Assembly: GCA_001802125.1 (NCBI GenBank)
Contig: MGZK01000008.1
Location: 1-64,000, forward strand
Length of the DNA: 64,000 nt
Origin: Geobacteraceae bacterium GWC2_55_20
Lineage (GTDB): Bacteria; Desulfobacterota; Desulfuromonadia; Geobacterales; Pseudopelobacteraceae
Reading direction: 5' to 3'
Part shown: positions 2,997 through 19,425 of the stretch, in pieces
Position numbering within the stretch: the first letter of the stretch is position 1
Layout of the letters: the number at the start of each line of letters is the position of its first letter
The notes under the pieces: model-generated
Database searches by the model: none
What the model was told of the DNA's origin: nothing
Seen by the model: only the letters and a program-made list of their open reading frames with translations
Position numbers and translations under genes: made by a program

Positions 2997-5390
2997 ATGA
3001 GATCCATCCTCTGCCTTGTTATAATTATCGCTGCCATTTCCAGTCCCGGCAACTGTCCGGACGCGGCTGTTTCCGGCGAGATTACGGCGTCAAAGCCGGC
3101 GGAGGCCGCTTTTGCCGGATCGAAGAGCTGCCGCGAGTGTCACGATCGCTTCTACAAGCTCTGGTCCGGCTCGTTTCACGGGCTGGCAATGCAGGCCTAC
3201 CACAGGGGCTTTGGTGAAGGAAAGATACAGCCGCAGCAGGCAGCGATCAGGATCGGCGAATACAGCTACCGGGCCGATCTCCTGCTGGACGCGGTGGTCG
3301 AAAAAGGGCCGGACGGCGACCGCAGCTATCCGATAGCGCACGTCATGGGGGGCAAGTACGTTTACTACTTCCTGACGGCCATGGACAAGGGCCGGCTGCA
3401 GACACTTCCGGTGGCATACGACCTGCGCAAAAACGAATGGTTCGACACGGCGCTGTCCGCCGTCAGGCACATACCCGGCCGCCGCGAGACTAGCGCACCT
3501 AACAGCTGGAAAGATGTTTCCTACACCTTCAACAGCGCCTGCCGGGACTGCCATGTCAGCCAGCGGGCCAGCTCTTTCGACCGCGACACCGACAGTTTCA
3601 GCACCTCCTGGAAAGAGCCGGGGATAAACTGCGAAACCTGCCACGGCCCTTCGGAGGAGCACAACCGGGTTCTGCGTGCTCTTCCCAAGGGGGAGAAACC
3701 GCTGGACTACAAGCTGGTGCGCACCAAACTGTTCACGCCGGCGCAGCACAACGACTCCTGCAACTCCTGCCACGCCAAGGCGGCCCACCTCACCGGCGGC
3801 TACAAAGCCCCGGAGCGTTTCTTCGATCATTTCGACCTGGCAACCCTGGAAGACAGCGATTATTACCCCGACGGGCGCGACCTGGGCGAGAACTACACCA
3901 TGACCTCCTGGATGCTGAGCCCCTGCGCGAAGCAGGGACAGCTGCACTGCATCACCTGCCACACTTCCAGCGGCCGTTACCGGTTCCGCAAGCCGGAGGA
4001 TGCCAACAAGGTCTGCCTCCCCTGCCACGAGAAGCATGTGAAGCAGCCGTTTCCCCACACCCGCCACAAGACCGGCAGCGCCGGGTCGCACTGCGTATCC
4101 TGCCACATGCCGACCACCGAATTTGCCCGCATGAAGCGCAGCGACCATTCGATGCTGCCCCCCATGCCCTCGGCAACGATCCGCTTCAATTCGCCCAACG
4201 CCTGCAACGGCTGCCATGCCGACAGAAGTGCCGAATGGGCCGACAATGCCGTGCGTTCCTGGCGAGCCAGGGATTACCAGGCTCCCTACCTGAAGCGCGC
4301 CGCGCTGATCGAGCGGGCCCGCAGGAAAGATTGGAGCGGCCTGGACTTGATTCTCGCCTATATCGGCGACAAGTCCCGGGACGAGATCTTCTCGGCCTCG
4401 CTGATCAGGCTGCTGGAGGATGCGGACTTCAAGCGCACCACCCCCACGCTGCTGTCGGCCCTGAAAGACCGGTCGCCGCTGGTCAGGGGCGCGGCGGCCG
4501 ACATCCTGGGTCGAAATCCGGCGCCCGAGGTGTTACAGGCTCTGGCCCGGGCCACCGGTGACGAATACCGTCTGGTACGGGTGATGGCGGCCGGTTCCCT
4601 GTCGGCCTATCCCCAGTACGAGCCGCAAAAGGAGTCTGCCGCGCAGGTAGAAAAAGCCACCGCGGAATACCTGGAGGTGCTGGCATCGCGGCCGGTCAGC
4701 TGGATAGCCAGCTACAACCTGGGCAACTATTACCTGAACCGCGCCCAGCCGCAAAAAGCGCTGGATGAATATCAACGGGCGCTGAAACTCTCCGGCTCCG
4801 CCGTGATGCCGCGGGTGAACTCGGCCATAGCACAGGTCCAGCTGGGGCGGAAGGACGAGGCCGAGGAATTCCTGACACAGGCGGTGGCGCTCTCCCCGGA
4901 ACAGTCCGTTGCCCATTACAACCTGGCAATGCTGGCCGGAGAGCGCGGTGACCTGCCCAAGGCTGAAAAACACCTCAGGCTCTCTTTCAGCATCGACCCG
5001 GGCATGGCCGACGCCGCTTTCCGGCTCTGCCTGCTGATGTCGGGCGAACGGATCAACGAGGGCATAGCCTGGTGTCGGAAAGCGGTGGAGATAAGCCCTG
5101 ACGAGCCGGATTACGCATATACCATGGCCGTTTCCCAGAGCCGGGCCGGAGATTTCGATGGGGCGATCGCTACGCTTTCCGCGCTGATCGGCCGCATCCC
5201 CTCCTTTGCCCAGGCGTATCTTCTGCAGGGTGAACTGTACCAGATGTCCGGCAACGACGAATTGGCACTACTTGTGTATCACCGCATGACGGAAATGTTC
5301 GCAATCGGCGAACAGTATCGAAAGATTGCCCGCGAACGCATCGAGGCGCTGCGACCTTCCGGGACACCCGGACCGGGAGCGGTCCGATAA
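2997..5390 (+). CDS. Octaheme c-type cytochrome with HEAT and TPR repeats
   Basis: 797 aa exported multiheme cytochrome. The ATG at 2997 was chosen over upstream in-frame starts because it lies just after the previous stop and opens a hydrophobic signal sequence (MRSILCLVIIIAA). Eight CxxCH haem-binding motifs follow: CRECH, CRDCH, CETCH, CNSCH, CITCH, CLPCH, CVSCH and CNGCH. The segment CHMPTTEFARMKRSDHSM matches the recurring CHMP...DHS signature of the cytochrome c554-like/TPR cytochrome family. Haem domains occupy about residues 40-410, HEAT-like helical repeats about 420-560 and TPRs about 565-790 (for example YNLGNYYLNRAQPQKALDEY). Such proteins sit in the periplasm or outer surface of Geobacter-type bacteria and transfer electrons; the repeats probably dock partner proteins. 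It is flanked by two large exported proteins. The redox partner cannot be told from sequence. Confidence 0.9.
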   Translation: MRSILCLVIIIAAISSPGNCPDAAVSGEITASKPAEAAFAGSKSCRECHDRFYKLWSGSFHGLAMQAYHRGFGEGKIQPQQAAIRIGEYSYRADLLLDAVVEKGPDGDRSYPIAHVMGGKYVYYFLTAMDKGRLQTLPVAYDLRKNEWFDTALSAVRHIPGRRETSAPNSWKDVSYTFNSACRDCHVSQRASSFDRDTDSFSTSWKEPGINCETCHGPSEEHNRVLRALPKGEKPLDYKLVRTKLFTPAQHNDSCNSCHAKAAHLTGGYKAPERFFDHFDLATLEDSDYYPDGRDLGENYTMTSWMLSPCAKQGQLHCITCHTSSGRYRFRKPEDANKVCLPCHEKHVKQPFPHTRHKTGSAGSHCVSCHMPTTEFARMKRSDHSMLPPMPSATIRFNSPNACNGCHADRSAEWADNAVRSWRARDYQAPYLKRAALIERARRKDWSGLDLILAYIGDKSRDEIFSASLIRLLEDADFKRTTPTLLSALKDRSPLVRGAAADILGRNPAPEVLQALARATGDEYRLVRVMAAGSLSAYPQYEPQKESAAQVEKATAEYLEVLASRPVSWIASYNLGNYYLNRAQPQKALDEYQRALKLSGSAVMPRVNSAIAQVQLGRKDEAEEFLTQAVALSPEQSVAHYNLAMLAGERGDLPKAEKHLRLSFSIDPGMADAAFRLCLLMSGERINEGIAWCRKAVEISPDEPDYAYTMAVSQSRAGDFDGAIATLSALIGRIPSFAQAYLLQGELYQMSGNDELALLVYHRMTEMFAIGEQYRKIARERIEALRPSGTPGPGAVR

Positions 5391-5429
5391 CTAATATCCA
5401 TTTCAGATTTTACGACAATGGAAGGCAGT

Positions 5430-5602
5430 AGTGTCCGGTTAGGTTATTGCAGTGGCCTTAAAAGTCCCCCGCCCCTTGCGGGAGGGGGTTAGGGGGTGGG
5501 GGAGATCGCCACAAAGTTACTCCGTTGCAGCTTCACCCACCCCTCAATCCCCTCCCGTCAAGGGAGGGGAGGCTAAATGCAAAGACCAAACCGGACGACA
5601 CT
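5430..5602. repeat. MITE/REP-like palindromic element abutting a start codon
   Basis: The segment begins AGTGTCCGGTTAGG (5430) and ends AACCGGACGACACT (5589-5602), an imperfect terminal inverted repeat: the right end read in reverse is AGTGTCGTCCGGTT, with one extra GTC. Inside lie long C/G-rich complementary blocks (5466-5502 against 5536-5572), including CCCCGCCCCTTGCGGGAGG and CCCCTCCCGTCAAGGGAGG, each a hairpin of its own. It codes for nothing recognisable. Such non-autonomous palindromic elements are usually multicopy. Its right end is 2 bp from the ATG at 5605, so the normal leader of that gene appears to have been replaced. Confidence 0.75.
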
Positions 5603-5604
5603 GA

Positions 5605-8409
5605 ATGAAAGGAAACAAATTGATTCAGCTGACAAAACCCGCAACAAGACGGCTGCCGCTGGCGCTGTCGGCCTTGATCCTGTTTATACTGGCTGTTTCC
5701 CTCCCGGCCCATGCCGCCGATGTGATCATCGAAGGGCGGGTGCTGACCGAATCCGGCCCGCTGGCCAATGCATCGGTCTCCGCCTACCGCAGCTACGCCG
5801 ACCTGCGGAACGGCTCCGGACCGGTGGCAGCCGCGACCAGCAACAGCGACGGATTGTACCGGCTGAATCTGCCGCCGGGTTCCTACTTTTTCACCGCCAA
5901 CGGTGAAAGCGACGGACGCCGCTTCCATGCCTACCATGGCAGCAACCCGCTCACGGTTGCCAACGAGACCTTCTGGCTCGGCCTGCTGGCGACCCCCCGG
6001 GACTTACCACCGGCCTACGCTGATGGCCAGACCGGCCTGGAGGGGATCGTCACCTACAAGGGTAAGCCACTGGAAGGCGCCTATCTGGCGCTTTACAAGC
6101 CGGACAGCAAGAGCTTCAAGGGATTGGGGGTCAGGACCGAATCGATTGGAAGCGACGGCAGGTTCAGACTGAACCTGCAGCCCGGCTCCTACGTGGTCAC
6201 CGCCAGGAACATCGAGAACGGCAAGAGCAACCGACCGCTCCAGCAGGGCGATCTTTACTGCTACTTTTCCGGCAACCCGGTCGAAGTCAAACAGGACCAG
6301 AAAGCCCGGATCGAGATGTCCTGCTATCCCAAGGGCAACCGGGACAACTTCGTAGCGACCAGGAAGATCAAATCCGATGTTCTCAACACCTATTCCGAAC
6401 AGCAGGCCTCCTCTAAATCAGGCATACGCGGAATCGTCACCGACCAGACCGGACAACCGGTCGCCGGAATGAACGTACTGGCCTACCGCCTGACAACCCC
6501 GGTATTCATGATGTACCATGTCTATCACGGCAGCGAACATTCGGCACTGACCGACAGGCAGGGCAGATTCTTCATCCCGCTGGATTCGGACGGCAATTAC
6601 GGTCTGGTGGCGCGCGACACGCTGGGGGACGGCCCGCACCGGGGCGAGCTGTACGGACTGTACCAGGGAAATGTGCGCCACGCGGTGAGCTTGAAGCAGG
6701 GGCAAACCGTGGAGAACGTATCCATCATCGTCGGCAGGGTCATGGATGACAGCGGACAGCCCCCTGCCGGGACGGCGCCGCAGGTCGTGGTCGGTACCAC
6801 CGACGGCAACCCGGTCGTGCTGAGCGATACGGTCATCACCAGGGACACGGTCTGGCAGGGAGAGATCATCATCCAGGGGGTGGTGGCGGTCAAGCGCGGA
6901 ACCACCCTGCAGATCCGGCCGGGAACCACCATCAGGTTCAGAAAGACGGACCGGGACAACAACGACGTGGGCGACGGTGAGATACTGGTTGAAGGGCGCC
7001 TGATCGCAAGGGGAACCCCGGAGAACAGAATCGTCTTCACCTCGGCCGAGGACAAACCGGCGGCCGGCGACTGGTCTTACCTGCAGTTCCTGGCTTCCAA
7101 CAGGGGCAACATCATCGAGCACTGCCAGTTCGAATACGCCTTTGCGGGGGTGATGATCCATTATGCCGACGTGAAGATCAGCGATACGCTCTTCAGGAAC
7201 AATAACCGGGGATTGCACTACAACACCGCCGACCTCGAAGTAGATCACAGCACGTTCGTCAACAACCGCATCGGCATAAGATTCATGCGCATGGAAGGCA
7301 ATGTGCGCATCACCAACAACCACATCACCCAAAACGATATCGGCGTGCTGTTCGTGCGCCAGCACGTCAATGCGGTCAACTTCGAACAGCTCAACCGCGG
7401 ACAGGAAGTCCCGGCCTATCAGGGAAACAACATCCACGCCAACCGCAATTACAATTTTTCACTGGGCGAAGAGCAGGAACGGGACATAAAGGTGCCGGGC
7501 AACTGGTGGGGAACACCGTCAACAAGCGCCGTTGCCGAGCTGATGTACGACCGCAGCAAGAATCCCACGGTCAGCCGGATAGAGTTCGAACCGTTTCTTG
7601 AGACCCCGGTGGCCGGCGCCGGAGTGCGTGGTCTTAACCCCGAGTTCATCTTCGCAGGCTTGGCAAAGAACGATTCGCGCGACAACGAGACCCCACAGGC
7701 CGGAGTACTTTCCGGACGTTTCCTCATGGCCGACGACAGGCCGCTCTCCGGGGCGCTGCTGTACCTGTACAACCTGAAGAGCGGCCCGCTCCCCTCCCTG
7801 AACCGCTACTGGCGTGTTCCCAACCATAGCGCCGAAGTCGGCGCCGACGGGCGTTTCAGCATCCAGGCGCCGCCCGGCATATACAGCATCGGTGCCATAA
7901 AACGCTCAAACGGCCTGTATATCGGCCCTCCGGAACTGGACGACCTGTTCATGCTCAACCTGGATGAAACCGGCCAGCCCAGGGCCTTCAGCCTGAAACC
8001 GGGAGCGCTGCTCAACCTGGGCGATATCAGGGAAACACCCGTTTCCGCCAGGAAAAAGGACCCATCGGAAGCGGTCACCGCGATCGAGGGGGTGATTACC
8101 GACATCAAGGGAAAACCGCTGGAAGGGGTGCTGGTGTTTGCATTCACCAGGCCCGCTGTTGTCGGCAAACCGCTCTTCGTATCCCAGCCCAGCGATGCCA
8201 GGGGGCATTTCAGGCTGGCCATCGCCGAAGGCGGCACATACTACCTCAAGGCCCGCAGCAACCTGGGGGGAGGCCCGCCCCAGACCGGACTGGTTATCGA
8301 CGGCAACAAGCTGGAACCGCTGGTCCAGGTTTCGGTCAACACCGGTAGGACCGCCACCGGGATCGCCCTCAAGACCAAGACCTTTCCGGGACGCGGGCGC
8401 AAGAAGTAA
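5605..8409 (+). CDS. Exported protein: carboxypeptidase-regulatory-like repeats plus parallel beta-helix
   Basis: 934 aa. A signal peptide is evident (LPLALSALILFILAVSLPAHA). Carboxypeptidase-regulatory-like (beta-sandwich, CarboxypepD_reg) units occur at about residues 40-120, 145-205 and 270-370, with typical SDGLYRLNLPPGSY and SDGRFRLNLQPGSY segments. A right-handed beta-helix follows at about 395-670 and ends in GNWWGTPSTSA, the NWWG landmark of NosD/pectate-lyase-like proteins. Two further regulatory-like units lie at about 700-830 and 845-930. The start at ATG 5605 gives the signal peptide but has no Shine-Dalgarno sequence at proper spacing, because the upstream MITE-like repeat reaches to within 2 bp. 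Probably an outer-surface structural protein associated with the neighbouring cytochrome. No catalytic residues were identified. It resembles the lipoprotein at 57354-58619. Confidence 0.85.
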   Translation: MKGNKLIQLTKPATRRLPLALSALILFILAVSLPAHAADVIIEGRVLTESGPLANASVSAYRSYADLRNGSGPVAAATSNSDGLYRLNLPPGSYFFTANGESDGRRFHAYHGSNPLTVANETFWLGLLATPRDLPPAYADGQTGLEGIVTYKGKPLEGAYLALYKPDSKSFKGLGVRTESIGSDGRFRLNLQPGSYVVTARNIENGKSNRPLQQGDLYCYFSGNPVEVKQDQKARIEMSCYPKGNRDNFVATRKIKSDVLNTYSEQQASSKSGIRGIVTDQTGQPVAGMNVLAYRLTTPVFMMYHVYHGSEHSALTDRQGRFFIPLDSDGNYGLVARDTLGDGPHRGELYGLYQGNVRHAVSLKQGQTVENVSIIVGRVMDDSGQPPAGTAPQVVVGTTDGNPVVLSDTVITRDTVWQGEIIIQGVVAVKRGTTLQIRPGTTIRFRKTDRDNNDVGDGEILVEGRLIARGTPENRIVFTSAEDKPAAGDWSYLQFLASNRGNIIEHCQFEYAFAGVMIHYADVKISDTLFRNNNRGLHYNTADLEVDHSTFVNNRIGIRFMRMEGNVRITNNHITQNDIGVLFVRQHVNAVNFEQLNRGQEVPAYQGNNIHANRNYNFSLGEEQERDIKVPGNWWGTPSTSAVAELMYDRSKNPTVSRIEFEPFLETPVAGAGVRGLNPEFIFAGLAKNDSRDNETPQAGVLSGRFLMADDRPLSGALLYLYNLKSGPLPSLNRYWRVPNHSAEVGADGRFSIQAPPGIYSIGAIKRSNGLYIGPPELDDLFMLNLDETGQPRAFSLKPGALLNLGDIRETPVSARKKDPSEAVTAIEGVITDIKGKPLEGVLVFAFTRPAVVGKPLFVSQPSDARGHFRLAIAEGGTYYLKARSNLGGGPPQTGLVIDGNKLEPLVQVSVNTGRTATGIALKTKTFPGRGRKK

Positions 8410-8661
8410 ACTATAATCGGACAATTTATAAGCAGAGAATCAGACTCAACATGAGGAGGTGTGTTTCCAAGAAAATTTCAGGATTTTTCCACATGGTTAT
8501 ATTATTAAGGGCTCAACTCTGTTGCGTTCAAAACAGATATCTGTTAGAAGTGCAGGCTCGGTGTTTAGCAATGTCCAATTATATTTAATACATAATGGCA
8601 TTGGGTAGTGATGACGACTAACACTTGCGAGCCATTTAATCTTTTACGTAACGGAGTAGGC
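8410..8661. other. Intergenic region before the LuxR-type regulator
   Basis: About 250 bp, A+T-richer than its flanks, with no open frame supported by a ribosome binding site. A GAGGAGGT run at 8452-8459 is not followed by a coding frame of useful length. An in-frame GTG at 8608 and ATG at 8611 would lengthen the downstream regulator by 17-18 residues. No riboswitch or terminator was recognised. Confidence 0.5.
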
Positions 8662-9264
8662 ATGAGAGTTGTGATCAGCCTTGGGAGTTCACTACTGGGT
8701 AAAGCCTTGCAGGAACAGTTACAGCAACAGCCTGAAATATCCGAGGTGGTCGTGCTGAATCCCGACCGCGATCTGGAGTTGTCCGAGCCGGATTTTCTGA
8801 TTACCGACGTCTATACCATAAAACAGAGCAAACCGGCCTGGCTGACCGGATCAAAAACGGTTCTTCTCGATTACGGTCTCAGCGAAGACAGCATCGCCTG
8901 CCTGATCATCACCAACAAGATCAACGGAATAATGACGGTTGACGCAGACATGCGTCTGCTTTTAAAGGCATTTCATGCAATCAACAACGGACAGATCTGG
9001 ATAGACAATTGCAAAATCAAGGCATTGGTCAACTTCGCCGACAACACCAAGGATTCAATTATTGCAGGATGTTTGAGCAACAAGGAACGGGAAGTTGTCA
9101 TGAACATTTCCCAGGGCCTCACAAACAAGGAAATTGCCTCACAACTCTACATCAGTGAACAAACCGTAAAAACTCACATCAACAGCATTTTTAAAAAATT
9201 GAACATGACACGTCGGACCCAGCTGGTTCCGCTGGGAATAAAACTTAAAGAAGCCCTCATTTAG
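8662..9264 (+). CDS. LuxR-family response-regulator-like transcription factor, degenerate receiver
   Basis: 200 aa DNA-binding regulator. The C-terminal part (about 137-195) is a clear LuxR/GerE helix-turn-helix: LSNKEREVVMNISQGLTNKEIA, then ISEQTVKTHINSIFKKLNM. The N-terminal part has the length and pattern of a receiver domain, with a beta-3-like PDFLITDVYTI carrying an aspartate and a GIMTVDADMRLLLKAFHAINNGQIWI ending. However, the acidic pair expected after beta-1 is absent (MRVVISLGSSLLG), so ordinary phosphorylation is doubtful. Start 8662 was chosen because GGAG lies 5-8 bp upstream; a GTG at 8608 is the alternative. It lies downstream of the surface-protein/cytochrome genes and could control them, which is inference only. 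Confidence 0.8.
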   Translation: MRVVISLGSSLLGKALQEQLQQQPEISEVVVLNPDRDLELSEPDFLITDVYTIKQSKPAWLTGSKTVLLDYGLSEDSIACLIITNKINGIMTVDADMRLLLKAFHAINNGQIWIDNCKIKALVNFADNTKDSIIAGCLSNKEREVVMNISQGLTNKEIASQLYISEQTVKTHINSIFKKLNMTRRTQLVPLGIKLKEALI

Positions 9265-9672
9265 TAGTTTTCCGAAAAGCCCTGCCATCAAATCCATTTC
9301 GATGCACATTTCTTTAATAATACTACTTAAGTTCTAGCCAACCAGCGAACCCTCCGCAGTCGCCCCTGTCATCCCAGGGAGAAATTACACCGATATTACG
9401 GATGGTTATGAAATCGATGCGGGATTTTGATTCTATTTGGAGGCCAAAAGCAGGTTCTGATTATCAAACTTACGTTGTAGTTCGTTTTCCGAAAGATTTA
9501 GCCTGTTGACCGATTGTTACTCGGTTTCCAACCTGTTACAACTGCTCTGCGTCGAAAAAATAATAGTCAACCGCCAGACGGAATTATGAAGATTCGGCGC
9601 AGCAGCACTCTCCGCGTATTGTTTTGAACTTTGTCGTCCAACTAAACTCATCAAACCCAAGGAGGAATGAAA
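9265..9672. other. Intergenic region, 408 bp
   Basis: No open frame with start, ribosome binding site and useful length was found on either strand. A short direct repeat, TTTTCCGAAA, occurs near 9269 and again near 9487. A strong AAGGAGG at 9659-9665 belongs to the next gene. I looked for a GEMM-type riboswitch, common in this group, and did not see one. No terminator hairpin is clear after the regulator. Confidence 0.45.
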
Positions 9673-10020
9673 ATGAAAATCGTTAATATTTCAAAAAAAG
9701 CTCTGCTTTGTATCTCACTGTTAGGCTTAACAGTTCCGTGCATGGCAAACGAGATTCCCCAATCAGGAAAACATGTGCAACGTGTTGAGCAGGAAGAAGC
9801 AATTGTGGTAAATATCGACCAGAACTATGTCACCCTTCAGTCGATTGGAGACAAGGACAAAATATCTTCCATTCCATTCAGCAATACCGGTAGATTAAAA
9901 GTCGGAGACAAGGTGATCGTAACCGGCAATACTTTTAAGATAAAAGATGATGCCGGGCAAGCCGGCTCCGGGGGAGCTTCATCCGATGAGAAATCACCTG
10001 AGAACGGTAAAAAGCTGTAA
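9673..10020 (+). CDS. Small exported protein of unknown function
   Basis: 115 aa from ATG 9673. This start is 7 bp after GGAGG at 9661-9665, whereas the in-frame ATG at 9667 is only 1 bp away. A signal peptide (KKALLCISLLGLTVPCMA, cleavage near NEIPQ) implies periplasmic location. The mature part holds a small beta-rich module (EEAIVVNIDQNYVTLQS, LKVGDKVIVTGNTFKI) that resembles short OB-like or SH3-like folds, then a low-complexity Gly/Ser/Lys tail. No family was recognised. It stands alone and is followed by a strong terminator. Confidence 0.7.
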   Translation: MKIVNISKKALLCISLLGLTVPCMANEIPQSGKHVQRVEQEEAIVVNIDQNYVTLQSIGDKDKISSIPFSNTGRLKVGDKVIVTGNTFKIKDDAGQAGSGGASSDEKSPENGKKL

Positions 10021-10128
10021 AAGGCGTGCTGATTCACGGGCAGTTCAATTCCCACGACTCCGTCATTAGAACGGTTGCCGCTGCCGGCATGCATTAAACG
10101 ACACAAAACAAAATCAATGGAGAGATAT

Positions 10129-10175
10129 AAAAGATGGGATATTCCGATTTGCTCGGCATATCCCATCTTTTTTTT
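10129..10175 (+). terminator. Rho-independent terminator
   Basis: AAAAGATGGGATAT pairs with ATATCCCATCTTTT around a loop of about 15 bases, followed by a run of T to 10175. It lies 110 bp after the small exported protein and before the convergent aminotransferase. Confidence 0.85.
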
Positions 10176-10213
10176 ACATTTGACCTCACAACGACCTTCT
10201 TAGAAACAAATCA

Positions 10214-11518
10214 TCAAGCCAGATCCTGCACTCCCTGATAAATGATATCGAACAGTTCCTGGATATTTTCCTCGGCAATACAGGAAAAGGCGATACGCAG
10301 GTCCGTTTTGGTGGTGGAAATGGCACCGACTCCGTATTTATCAAGCAAATGGATACGCAACTTTTCAGCTTCCACGGTTTTCAATTTCAGGCACATGAAA
10401 TAACCGGAGTTGAACGGGTAGTAATCCCATGCTTTCTGATATTTGTCGCTGTTGAGCACCTGTTTGGTTTTCAGCGCGCGGCCTTTCATCACCTGGAATT
10501 TTTCCTCCTTCTGGGCAAGGAATTGTGGTGAGCGAAGCGCCTCGATGACAAAAGTCTGGGAAGGATGCGGACAGTTGGAGATCTTGGCACGGATAATACC
10601 CATGGCCTTCTTTTCAAGGGCTGTCATGACCGGAGCATTTTCATAACCGTTGCCATCGGCAAAGGTAATAAAGCCGGTACGGAAACCCCAAACGAACTCT
10701 TCCTTGGTAGCGCCATCCAGTTTGATTGCCAGGATGCGCGGATGCAGGTTGGCCAGTTTGCCAAACAGCGACTCTTTCAGGCTGTCCTCGTAGAACAGAC
10801 CGAAGTAGGCGTCATCGGAAATGGCAACAACATTGCAACCCGCTTCGGCCACCTCTTTGATGGCTGCCACAATGGCGTCGCCCTCAGCAACGGTCGGTGT
10901 GTAGCCACTTGGGTTATTAGGGAAATTGAGCAGTACTATTGCTTTCCCCTTTTCCTCGGCGGTATTTTTCAGTTCAGCTTTAAAGGCCTCCACATCATAG
11001 CCACCGGTGGCGGTAAAAGTAGGATGTTTCTTGACGATAGCTCCGTTGCAGGTGCCGAAGGTCAGGTTGTAGTTACCCCACAGCATATCCGGCAGGATCA
11101 GGTGATCGCCTTTATCGACAAACATGTCGCCCACGATGGAGAGACCGTGGGTCAAGGCATTGGTAACAATCGGGTTGCTGAAATGCTTGCCATTCTGGCT
11201 GGGATTTTCCCGCAGCATTTTTTCACGCCACAAGGCACGCAGCTCCGGCTTGCCGGCCGGAGGCGCATAGGGGAAAATATCCTTTGGATCAAAGGCGGAA
11301 AGTTTGTCCTGAATGCACTGCAGAAACATCGGGCCACCGTTTTCTGTGGCAATGCCGATGGTAGCGTTAAATTTGTGCGCTTTTTCCTTTGCTTCAGCCG
11401 ACTGGGTCAAAATACCTTTTGGGAAAAAAAGGTTTTTACCAAGGTCGGACAACATCTCCAAAACGTGCGGACTGTGTTGCGTAAGCTGATCGTTGAGTTC
11501 CTGTGCTAATGGATTCAT
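10214..11518 (-). CDS. PLP-dependent aminotransferase, class I/II
   Basis: 434 aa. Start ATG at 11518 is preceded on the minus strand by AGGAGG at good spacing; in-frame codons further upstream look non-coding. Fold type I features are present: NFPNNPSGYTP (substrate and PLP contact), AISDDAYFGLFY (Asp and Tyr of the cofactor site), and the Schiff-base lysine in LDGATKEEFVWGFRTGF, whose arginine probably binds the alpha-carboxylate. The large-domain helix GIATENGGPMFL and the YAPPAGKPELR segment are typical. It transfers an amino group between an amino acid and a 2-oxo acid in the cytosol; the substrate is not evident from sequence. It is a monocistronic gene running against the small exported protein upstream of it in the window. 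Confidence 0.9.
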   Translation of the reverse strand: MNPLAQELNDQLTQHSPHVLEMLSDLGKNLFFPKGILTQSAEAKEKAHKFNATIGIATENGGPMFLQCIQDKLSAFDPKDIFPYAPPAGKPELRALWREKMLRENPSQNGKHFSNPIVTNALTHGLSIVGDMFVDKGDHLILPDMLWGNYNLTFGTCNGAIVKKHPTFTATGGYDVEAFKAELKNTAEEKGKAIVLLNFPNNPSGYTPTVAEGDAIVAAIKEVAEAGCNVVAISDDAYFGLFYEDSLKESLFGKLANLHPRILAIKLDGATKEEFVWGFRTGFITFADGNGYENAPVMTALEKKAMGIIRAKISNCPHPSQTFVIEALRSPQFLAQKEEKFQVMKGRALKTKQVLNSDKYQKAWDYYPFNSGYFMCLKLKTVEAEKLRIHLLDKYGVGAISTTKTDLRIAFSCIAEENIQELFDIIYQGVQDLA

Positions 11519-11771
11519 CGTACTCCTCCTGTTTATTGTTGCTTCCACAATGGATGCAGGGCTTATTGGCTGCGGATAATATTATGGGAGTAGAACAACA
11601 CCGGCCCATTTTTGTCAATAGATAAATGCAATGCCTGCCAATAGTATTGGTATACACAGGGGGTCCAGGGGATGTCAGTATTTGATATGAAAACTTTATC
11701 TTTAATTCTTGAGATGATATTGTGTAAGTGCTTTCCTGTGCATTTAACTTTACTTATTCAAAGGATTATTC

Positions 11772-16792: not shown

Positions 16793-17866
16793 TCAATACT
16801 TGTTGTACTTTTCCTGATACTTCTTGATCGCATCCTCAAAAATCATTTCGATCTCACCCTTGGGTCGATTATGTGCGTAACCCCAGAAATAGTTTATCAA
16901 GGCTGCTGAAATCAGGGTGATAACTATCGCTGAAACTGCCCAGGCAACCAATGATCTGGCATTGAATATTCCCGATGCATACTTGTCATCGTCCCCATTG
17001 ACCCCTCTAAACAGGTATCTTTCCCTCATTTGCCGGATTCTTTTGAGCTGGATATTGGAAATATGGTTGACTATCGCGTCGCGTTCACGCTCACCGATGT
17101 AAACAAACTGCATACCGGTATTGAAATATACCTGATCGCTTCCCGCGGCAAAGTTCCGGTTTGCAAAGATCACCCGTGCAATCACGTCCACAACCCTCCG
17201 TGGCGAAGGAACGAGAATTTCAAGCAGCACATACTCCCCGTTTTCAAAATCCTGGTGGGTTATGAGCCGGATACCACCACCGCTGACATTTGCCGCCAGC
17301 GGTATTATGGTATCCCATGAATCAGCGGTTTCACTTTCGCCGGCAATCCGCCCCTCCGCATCCTGAATTTTTTCATTGGGGAGATCGGCACTTTGGGATA
17401 GCAGATCACTACTCCAGATTTTTTCCTTCTGCTCCAGCTCAATCTGCTGACGGTGCGCCCGGCGCAATTCCCACTGTCTGTGGAGCACCTCGATATTCTG
17501 TTCTCTGCTAACATAGTATTTGATGGGAAGAAATGCATCGATCCGGTAGTATTCGCGCAGTTCATCGGAGACAATTTCGCCGATCAGCCTTAGAAGCAGT
17601 TCCCGTGAATCACCTTCCGAGACAATGATGGCCCGGCAACTGTATCCGGCGCCCTCTTTCCCCCCCCGCAATTCAAGTATCTGTCCATACTGGAGCTTTA
17701 CGCTGACAGGCAGAACATCTCTTGAAAGTTGCAGGGAAACGAGGTCTTCGTCGATATTATGAATAATGGCCCAGTCCCTGAATACTTCGGCGTTAGGCAA
17801 TGGAATGCCGACACCAACCTTGATACCGACCGAAAAAAAACGGGTATACTGTTCAAGGTCACTCAT
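16793..17866 (-). CDS. PilZ-domain protein with C-terminal membrane anchor
   Basis: 357 aa. A likely c-di-GMP receptor: the two binding signatures are present, RxxxR as REYYR at about residues 104-108 and (D/N)xSxxG as NVSGGG at about 193-198. They are separated by an unusually long insertion (about 85 residues) containing a charged, probably coiled-coil segment (RQWELRRAHRQQIELEQKEK). An N-terminal domain of about 90 residues resembles the flagellar-brake-like domain that precedes PilZ in such proteins. Near the C-terminus LVAWAVSAIVITLISAALIN is one transmembrane helix. Start ATG 17866 lies 8 bp after AGGAG; a TTG directly upstream is possible. The output target is unknown. Confidence 0.85.
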   Translation of the reverse strand: MSDLEQYTRFFSVGIKVGVGIPLPNAEVFRDWAIIHNIDEDLVSLQLSRDVLPVSVKLQYGQILELRGGKEGAGYSCRAIIVSEGDSRELLLRLIGEIVSDELREYYRIDAFLPIKYYVSREQNIEVLHRQWELRRAHRQQIELEQKEKIWSSDLLSQSADLPNEKIQDAEGRIAGESETADSWDTIIPLAANVSGGGIRLITHQDFENGEYVLLEILVPSPRRVVDVIARVIFANRNFAAGSDQVYFNTGMQFVYIGERERDAIVNHISNIQLKRIRQMRERYLFRGVNGDDDKYASGIFNARSLVAWAVSAIVITLISAALINYFWGYAHNRPKGEIEMIFEDAIKKYQEKYNKY

Positions 17867-17889
17867 CAATCAGCTCCTGGTAAATATAT

Positions 17890-18081
17890 TTATTTAAGAA
17901 CGCTGTTCAATGATGCCAACAGATCGTCAATATTGATTTTATGAACACCAGCGCCATGTTCCAGGGTCTCCAGGTCGGCTATCTGGCATTCATAACAATC
18001 AAGATTGAATTTTTTGAACACCGGCAGGGTTTCAGGGTGCTGTGTAATGATGTCGGAAATGATCATGTCTCGAGTAATCAT
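17890..18081 (-). CDS. DUF1858 domain protein (small redox-type domain)
   Basis: 63 aa from ATG 18081, preceded by GAGGG. It matches the short DUF1858 family: MIISDIITQHPETLPVFKKFNLDCYEC, in which the CxxC pair (here C-Y-E-C) is the conserved core, followed by a helix (LETLEHGAGVHKINIDDLLASL). The family is found alone or fused to hybrid-cluster proteins and is thought to bind via its cysteines; its function is not settled. It lies between the PilZ gene and a minus-strand terminator, so it probably has its own promoter. Confidence 0.85.
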   Translation of the reverse strand: MITRDMIISDIITQHPETLPVFKKFNLDCYECQIADLETLEHGAGVHKINIDDLLASLNSVLK

Positions 18082-18097
18082 CTGTACCCTCGCTCTC

Positions 18098-18130
18098 ATA
18101 AAAAGATGAGGCGCCTTTCAGCGCCTCACC
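18098..18130 (-). terminator. Rho-independent terminator (minus strand)
   Basis: On the minus strand GAGGCGC, loop TGAAAG, GCGCCTC is followed by ATCTTTTT. It sits just after the stop of the shortened aminotransferase frame, ending the rsmD-coaD transcript. Confidence 0.85.
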
Positions 18131-18138
18131 TTGACATG

Positions 18139-18324
18139 CTATTTTAGATTTTTTATCGCCTCTTCTATTCGGTGCATACCTTTTATTAAGTTTTCCATGC
18201 TGGTTGCAACTGAAAATCGGGCATATTTGTCGACGCCGCCAAACGGCATGTAGCGTGTAAAGCCGGCATCGAATGCCGGTGTGGGATACAGCTGAATTTG
18301 ATTTACGTGCTCTGCAAGCTTCAT
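18139..18324 (-). pseudogene. Internally deleted aspartate aminotransferase (N- and C-termini fused in frame)
   Basis: A 61-codon frame with a good ribosome site (AGGAAAG before ATG 18324). Its first ~20 residues, MKLAEHVNQIQLYPTPAFDA, read like the start of an AspB-type aspartate aminotransferase (MKLA-x-x-V-x-x-I-x-x-x-PT-x-x-x-DA). Its last ~30 residues, from KYARFSVATSMENLIKGMHR, read like the extreme C-terminus of the same family, which carries the RFSYATSMEN-like segment. The whole catalytic middle (roughly 330 residues with the PLP lysine) is missing, yet the frame is intact and both the ribosome site and terminator remain. A perfect inverted repeat, CCGGCAT-TCG-ATGCCGG, lies at the presumed junction. 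It is most likely a deletion pseudogene; a retained small peptide cannot be excluded. It follows coaD by 55 bp. Confidence 0.7.
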
Positions 18325-18379
18325 CATTCTTTCCTGCCAATTTTAGTGGGTGATTATCCACATTCCAGCTTTATCCGTA

Positions 18380-18865
18380 CTACACCAGTCCATATTTCTG
18401 TTTTAATGCTGCCTTGATTTCCGGAGGTACAAACATATCGATATCTCCGTTCAGAGAACAGACCTCCTTGACAATCGAAGAGGATAGATATCCATACTGC
18501 AAAGACGTCATCATAAACAGGGTTTCAATTTCACGGCCGATGGTGCTGTTCATCTGGGCAATCTGAAACTCGTACTCGAAATCCGATATGGCCCGCAATC
18601 CGCGAATGATCACATGTGCCCCACGAACGGATGCATAATCTATCAGAAGACCGCTGAAAGTGTCAACCGTGACTCTCTCTTCCTCCTTTAGTACATCATG
18701 GATAAGTGCCACGCGTTCATCGGTTGAGAATAATGCGTTTTTCTGGGAGTTTCTTGCAACTGCAACGATAATTTCATCAAATATCGTCAGGCCTCGCCTG
18801 ATGATATCCAGATGTCCATAGGTGATCGGGTCAAAAGACCCGGGATACACCGCGACTTTTTTCAT
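18380..18865 (-). CDS. coaD: Phosphopantetheine adenylyltransferase
   Basis: 161 aa, standard length. Adenylates 4'-phosphopantetheine to dephospho-CoA, the penultimate step of coenzyme A synthesis, in the cytosol. The nucleotidyltransferase motif is YPGSFDPITYGHLDII (T/HxGH type). VIIRGLRAISDFEYEFQIAQMN and YGYLSSSIVKEV are diagnostic. The start ATG overlaps the rsmD stop (ATGA, 18862-18865), so the two are translationally coupled. Confidence 0.97.
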   Translation of the reverse strand: MKKVAVYPGSFDPITYGHLDIIRRGLTIFDEIIVAVARNSQKNALFSTDERVALIHDVLKEEERVTVDTFSGLLIDYASVRGAHVIIRGLRAISDFEYEFQIAQMNSTIGREIETLFMMTSLQYGYLSSSIVKEVCSLNGDIDMFVPPEIKAALKQKYGLV

Positions 18866-19425
18866 GCTCTCTCCAGATTATAGAATTCAATAGCCGTATC
18901 GCCATATACGCGCCGGTCGGTCTTGATCAGAGTTCCCACGGTTCCCGGCAAGGGATTTCGTACGGAACATTCCGCAATGAATAAGGAATCAACGGTTAAC
19001 AGCCCAAGTTCGCACAATAACGCTGCAATTGACAGGTAAATGCCCGAGTCATATGGCGGATCAAGAAACACAAGATCGTACCCGGCTCCACGTTTTGAAA
19101 GCAACTTCAACGCCTTGTGTGATTCCATCGTCAACAGTTCCGACCTATGCTCAAACTTGGCGGCGGTCAGATTCTCGGTAAGTATCCCGGATACATTTCT
19201 GTTCTGCTCTATGAAAGTACATGAAGCCGCGCCCCGGCTTAATGATTCAATTCCCAGGCTGCCTGTTCCGGCACAGATATCCAGAACACGGCATCCTTGA
19301 AAATCAATTTGATTTGAAATTATGTTAAAAAGCGACTCCTTGACCCTGTCTGCCGTAGGGCGGGTTACTTCCCCATGTGGTGATTTCAACTTCATTCCGC
19401 GACAGATACCGGCAATTACTCGCAT
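18862..19425 (-). CDS. rsmD: 16S rRNA (guanine(966)-N(2))-methyltransferase
   Basis: 187 aa SAM-dependent methyltransferase modifying G966 of 16S rRNA. RVIAGICRGMKLKSP at the N-terminus and RPTADRVKESLFNII are family signatures; VLDICAGTGSLGIESLSRGA is the SAM-binding motif I and FLDPPYDSG the catalytic NPPY-type motif. Overlaps coaD by 4 bp, an arrangement common across bacteria. Divergent from the MCE operon. Confidence 0.95.
   Translation of the reverse strand: MRVIAGICRGMKLKSPHGEVTRPTADRVKESLFNIISNQIDFQGCRVLDICAGTGSLGIESLSRGAASCTFIEQNRNVSGILTENLTAAKFEHRSELLTMESHKALKLLSKRGAGYDLVFLDPPYDSGIYLSIAALLCELGLLTVDSLFIAECSVRNPLPGTVGTLIKTDRRVYGDTAIEFYNLERA

Follow-up and report, generated by a model that had tools for sequence, protein, structure and literature searches.

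Between coaD and a DUF1858 gene of Geobacteraceae bacterium GWC2_55_20, we identified a short open reading frame that preserves three fragments of an AspB-type aminotransferase gene. The reading we favor, and consider probable, is that of a displaced gene: AspB was made redundant by a second aminotransferase, was then hollowed out by two deletions, and has been drifting since. As gene relics go, the frame is ordinary, although its probable cause is unusually clear; it adds a case to a known kind and is not a new kind of gene. Its value lies in recording an enzyme replacement: the relic is recent, its sister gene is intact, a likely replacement enzyme is encoded close by, and across the order none of the genomes examined retains both enzymes. 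The relic is probably decaying slowly, and would be of note mainly as showing one enzyme replacing another. All positions given below refer to the window, i.e., the whole stretch of 64,000 nucleotides of contig MGZK01000008.1 that was analyzed.

Structure and ancestry of the frame

The frame runs on the minus strand from an ATG at 18325-18327 to a stop at 18139-18141 (18139-18327, 62 codons). A second ATG at 18322-18324, which is the start common to all three relics described below, yields 61 codons and confirms the frame that the original prediction had placed at 18139-18324. The slot is bounded upstream by coaD (18380-18865) and downstream by a DUF1858 gene (17890-18099, conserved start at 18081), both on the minus strand. 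In 22 of 80 named loci, Geobacter sp. H7geo (WKKS01000003) among them, the same slot holds an intact AspB gene. The ancestral order would have been coaD - aspB - DUF1858. Alignment with the intact aspB of three genomes of the genus (G005, G010, and G036) resolved the frame into three collinear in-frame pieces on the minus strand: AspB residues 1-20 (18265-18324), residues 59-68 (18235-18264, GFTRYMP-GG), and residues 368-398 (18142-18234). The first 20 and last 31 residues and the position of the terminator are shared with the intact coaD-adjacent genes. The original prediction had described the two AspB termini as fused in frame; the termini do match residue by residue, but a middle piece had gone unnoticed, which makes for two junctions instead of a single one.

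Absent from the relic are 337 of the 398 AspB codons, including the catalytic lysine region that had been reported as gone: the motif SKTYAMTGWR of the intact gene, which we take to be the site of the cofactor-binding lysine, falls within the deleted part, between residues 68 and 368. With these codons missing, the alignment indicates that the parent function is lost, and the relic product, if made, would lack both the catalytic lysine and the cofactor fold. The third piece contains the triplet YAR, presumably the substrate-binding arginine near the AspB C-terminus, and this position is occupied by R here, by L in G024, and by I in G011. The AspB ends can be recognized only with a relative's intact gene, because database profiles alone miss the relic. 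Specifically, Pfam profiles run against the 62-aa relic protein returned 0 families up to E = 1, leaving the family profile PF00155 unmatched, and the best match of a PDB sequence search with the same 62 residues (E = 0.16, C-terminal 28 residues only) did not rise above noise. The closest solved structure to the intact coaD-adjacent AspB is 1j32. Taken together, the shared slot, the three collinear pieces, and the intact sister gene indicate that the frame descends from an AspB-type class I aminotransferase gene, the origin originally proposed for it.

Among 39 genomes of the genus, the relic was found in three (G000, i.e., this genome, G011, and G024), an intact 398-aa aspB in another three (G005, where it occupies the same slot as the relic, G010, and G036), and neither form in 33. 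Of the 80 named coaD loci, 22 contain intact aspB and 2 the relic; in 47, coaD is immediately followed by DUF1858, and 9 are arranged otherwise. Both other relic genomes carry the same two junctions. The arrangement named in the original prediction as refuting it, i.e., the shortened gene beside an intact aspB, was not observed, since 0/3 relic genomes have an intact copy. In a FastTree phylogeny of 81 loci based on up to four neighboring proteins, the three relics form one clade (support 0.998) sister to the intact locus of G005 (1.000), and the deletions are therefore older than the split of the three. Since the identical two junctions recur in three different assemblies, each with substitutions of its own, a misassembly or a sequencing error can practically be dismissed as the explanation, even for a draft genome in 186 contigs.

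In the 81-locus tree, the loci that lack aspB are scattered. We searched for aspB remnants in 43 of the 47 aspB-less spacers, the 4 under 25 bases having been dropped. The coaD-DUF1858 spacer of one locus (L098, genome G012, positions 5481-5600) retains only a short, eroded piece of the aspB 3' end (0/2000 shuffles), a leftover that is independent of the relic and far more eroded. Two further candidates, in L117 (12/2000 shuffles) and L097 (9/2000), were unconvincing given 43 tests.

Deletions and repeats at the junctions

The first deletion removed 114 bp (38 codons) in frame and is flanked by a 12-bp direct repeat, now fused at 18265-18276 (minus strand). The two copies read GCAATCGATGCC and GCCATTGATGCC in G005, and repeat identity in the intact genes is 10/12 (G005), 9/12 (G010), and 12/12 (G036). 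The second deletion, also in frame, removed 897 bp (299 codons), catalytic lysine region included, and is flanked by short direct repeats fused at 18227-18237 (minus strand), the copies of which are 8/11 identical in all three intact genes. At the same spacing in G005, the repeat match of deletion 1 was reached by 2/1069 windows and that of deletion 2 by 1/287. Across all pairs 60-1100 bases apart, the corresponding fractions were 7e-5 and 1.7e-3, which makes the second repeat less remarkable than the first.

These repeats suggest that AspB would have lost both stretches by deletion between short direct repeats, possibly through slippage. The two copies of each repeat happen to specify identical residues in one and the same frame (AIDA...AIDA and GAD...GAD), which may explain why the frame stayed open; by chance, both deletions would be in frame about 1 time in 9. 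Deletion between short direct repeats is a known route by which bacterial pseudogenes become shorter, and the relic resembles such pseudogenes in having repeats at both deletions, relaxed substitutions, and an enzyme function probably covered elsewhere. It differs in that both deletions are in frame and the frame is still open.

A 7-bp perfect inverted repeat with a 3-base loop (CCGGCAT-CGA-ATGCCGG, 18263-18279) spans junction 1 and had been proposed to have guided the deletion. The repeat is real in this genome and in G024, but is absent in G011 and from the sister's intact gene. There, the part that was lost is preceded by ACTGGCAATCGATGCC; the CGG, and with it the right end of the repeat, originates on the far side of that part. 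It cannot have guided the deletion, since the deletion itself brought the two arms together and the sister's unbroken gene does not have them. The inverted repeat is instead a product of junction 1 plus substitutions.

Selection, ribosome site, and terminator

Given a frame that is still open in three genomes, the question is whether selection acts on it. In a three-taxon codon model with shared branch lengths, dN/dS was 0.42 for the relic versus 0.076 for its neighbors, a clear elevation (LRT 25.1). With the neighbors' clock imposed, dN/dS = 1.0 was rejected for the relic (LRT 13.2); on its own branch lengths, dN/dS was 0.55 and 1.0 was not rejected (LRT 1.8). Variable sites of the relic were spread nearly evenly over codon positions (8/7/11), compared to 21/17/122 summed over four neighbors (rsmD 5/10/37, coaD 4/1/30, DUF1858 4/1/13, and a gene that we take to be PilZ-like 8/5/42). 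This flat codon-position pattern and a dN/dS above that of the neighbors indicate that constraint was relaxed after the loss of function. Pairwise, the relics differ at 13/183, 21/183, and 18/183 sites and the two adjoining spacers, summed, at 4/112, 14/101, and 12/101, although these spacers contain the terminator and the ribosome site and are an imperfect neutral standard. Pairwise counts and the codon model place the relic between its neighbors and neutrality, and we read it as mostly relaxed, possibly with weak residual constraint. The probability of the frame surviving by chance in three lineages under substitutions alone was 0.29 on the relic's own lengths and 0.09 on the neighbors' lengths; assumed indel rates of 0.05-0.1 per substitution lowered this to 0.07-0.02 and 0.006-0.0004, respectively.

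Nor is the ribosome site intact, as had been supposed. The weakened site lies at 18330-18338 on the minus strand (GGCAGGAAA, where the sister's intact gene has AGGAGGAAA), and its predicted pairing with the 16S end, the letters of which we assumed, amounts to -5.5 kcal/mol in the relics. For 22 intact genes, the median is -10.3 kcal/mol, with values from -12.9 to -5.3 and 1/22 weaker than the relic. The relic's site is about half as strong as those of its relatives.

The most serious alternative is that the frame now serves as an independent small protein gene, i.e., that the leftover peptide, which has a C-terminal helix, was kept and acts in a function unrelated to transamination. The frame is open and of equal length in three genomes whose neighboring genes have diverged by roughly 0.14-0.39 at synonymous sites, the joint estimate of dN/dS rejects 1.0, and a C-terminal helix is predicted, with blocks at pLDDT 72 and 80. 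However, the codon-position pattern is nearly flat, total divergence is near that of the adjacent spacers, the ribosome site is weakened, the overall fold predicted from the three relic sequences is poor (pLDDT 59.9, pTM 0.29) and of too low quality to serve as a query for structural comparison, and only 3/39 genus genomes carry the frame. We consider this alternative unlikely, and slightly more so the specific course in which two in-frame deletions produced a small protein that took on a new function and was retained while the three species diverged. If true, a new small gene would have formed by the hollowing out of an old one.

Behind the relic, a terminator hairpin followed by a T run (18100-18132, minus strand) was detected by RNA folding (-24.8 kcal/mol, z -4.6), even though a consensus terminator scan of 17800-18900 listed none. 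The hairpin is nearly unchanged across the three relic genomes, and these features might suggest that the sequence is kept as a spacer, translated or folded, that separates coaD from its terminator and, e.g., protects the coaD message. Similar stems with T runs do follow coaD in several aspB-less loci (e.g., L085, L104, and L109), in line with such a role, but in 47/80 named loci only 12-231 bases lie between coaD and DUF1858 and the frame is missing, and no RNA element in 17800-18900 matched Rfam. A spacer role is correspondingly improbable. Because like stems follow coaD in loci without aspB, the terminator belongs to the slot and not to the relic; the hairpin noted in the original prediction is real, but it is no sign of retention. 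The view that keeping frame and signals is unusual for a decaying pseudogene is weakened by the halved ribosome site, the terminators at aspB-less loci, and the flat codon positions. More generally, the case illustrates how little a start, a ribosome site, a terminator, and the absence of internal stops say about whether a short frame is a gene.

A second aminotransferase and the probable displacement of AspB

About 7 kb from the relic, the window encodes a full-length aminotransferase of another family, NCBIfam NF006388 (444 aa, 10214-11548, minus strand, likely start ATG at 11516-11518). It is the likely replacement and the probable answer to where the organism now encodes aspartate aminotransferase, a question that the original prediction had raised. 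The closest PDB structure is 2x5f, named aspartate/tyrosine/phenylalanine aminotransferase, and NF006388 is described only as "hypothetical protein", a name that could conceal the aspartate step in annotations. Judging from these family names only (1j32-like for AspB, 2x5f-like for the second enzyme), both would catalyze the same reaction.

Within the genus, the second enzyme was found in 32/39 genomes, and the three genomes with intact aspB, G005 included, are among the 7 without it. Across 141 genomes of the order, at match thresholds of E 1e-60 and 1e-110, the second enzyme was detected in 88, AspB in 42, both in 0, and neither in 11. A complementary distribution is expected of non-orthologous displacement, and no genome carried both enzymes (Fisher P 5e-26, a value overstated because the genomes are related). 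The 11 genomes with neither enzyme at these thresholds (G015, G022, G034, G040, G058, G092, G112, G126, G130, G132, and G137), taken as the complement of those listed with matches and in some cases incomplete or fragmented, would reflect assembly gaps or a third enzyme, and with them the two-enzyme pair is not the whole story. A coaD match was available for 19 genomes more distantly placed in the order; in 11 of them the second enzyme stands directly behind coaD (8-97 bases), i.e., in the aspB slot (G038, G039, G041, G042, G047, G048, G049, G051, G052, G054, and G056).

In a tree of 46 of the 88 second-enzyme sequences, the relic clade groups with genus g10 (0.998), unlike in the neighborhood tree. 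Homology of G005 to the window ends at 11690, just before the gene adjoining the second enzyme in the three relic genomes, and 4001-11689 had no match in the G005 stretch that was fetched, which puts the second enzyme at the edge of the break. The simplest reading of the tree and the break would be horizontal transfer; alternatively, the second enzyme may have descended vertically and then been lost in G005. Beside the second enzyme, positions 10129-10173 also match G024 in inverted orientation, probably as a palindromic hairpin.

Under the displaced-gene reading, the ancestor of the three genomes would have had this aminotransferase or gained it, probably by horizontal transfer, and its presence would have made AspB redundant. 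Since the deletions, the relic would have drifted under little constraint and would have no function today. The second enzyme was most likely in place before AspB lost its middle, and enzyme replacement is probably the cause of the loss of aspB. In the titles and abstract openings that we surveyed, we found no description of this relic, although it may still have been published. For one step and two Geobacter species, a comparable situation is described in PMC2700814: the aspartate aminotransferases of G. metallireducens (Gmet_2078, Bacillus circulans type) and G. sulfurreducens (GSU1242, Sinorhizobium meliloti type) are of different types. Gmet_2078 would presumably fall in the NF006388 family, and GSU1242 would be of the AspB type seen here. 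The likeness is that each genome uses one of two alternative enzymes for the step, and the difference is that here the exclusion extends over 141 genomes and the relic of the losing enzyme is still in place.
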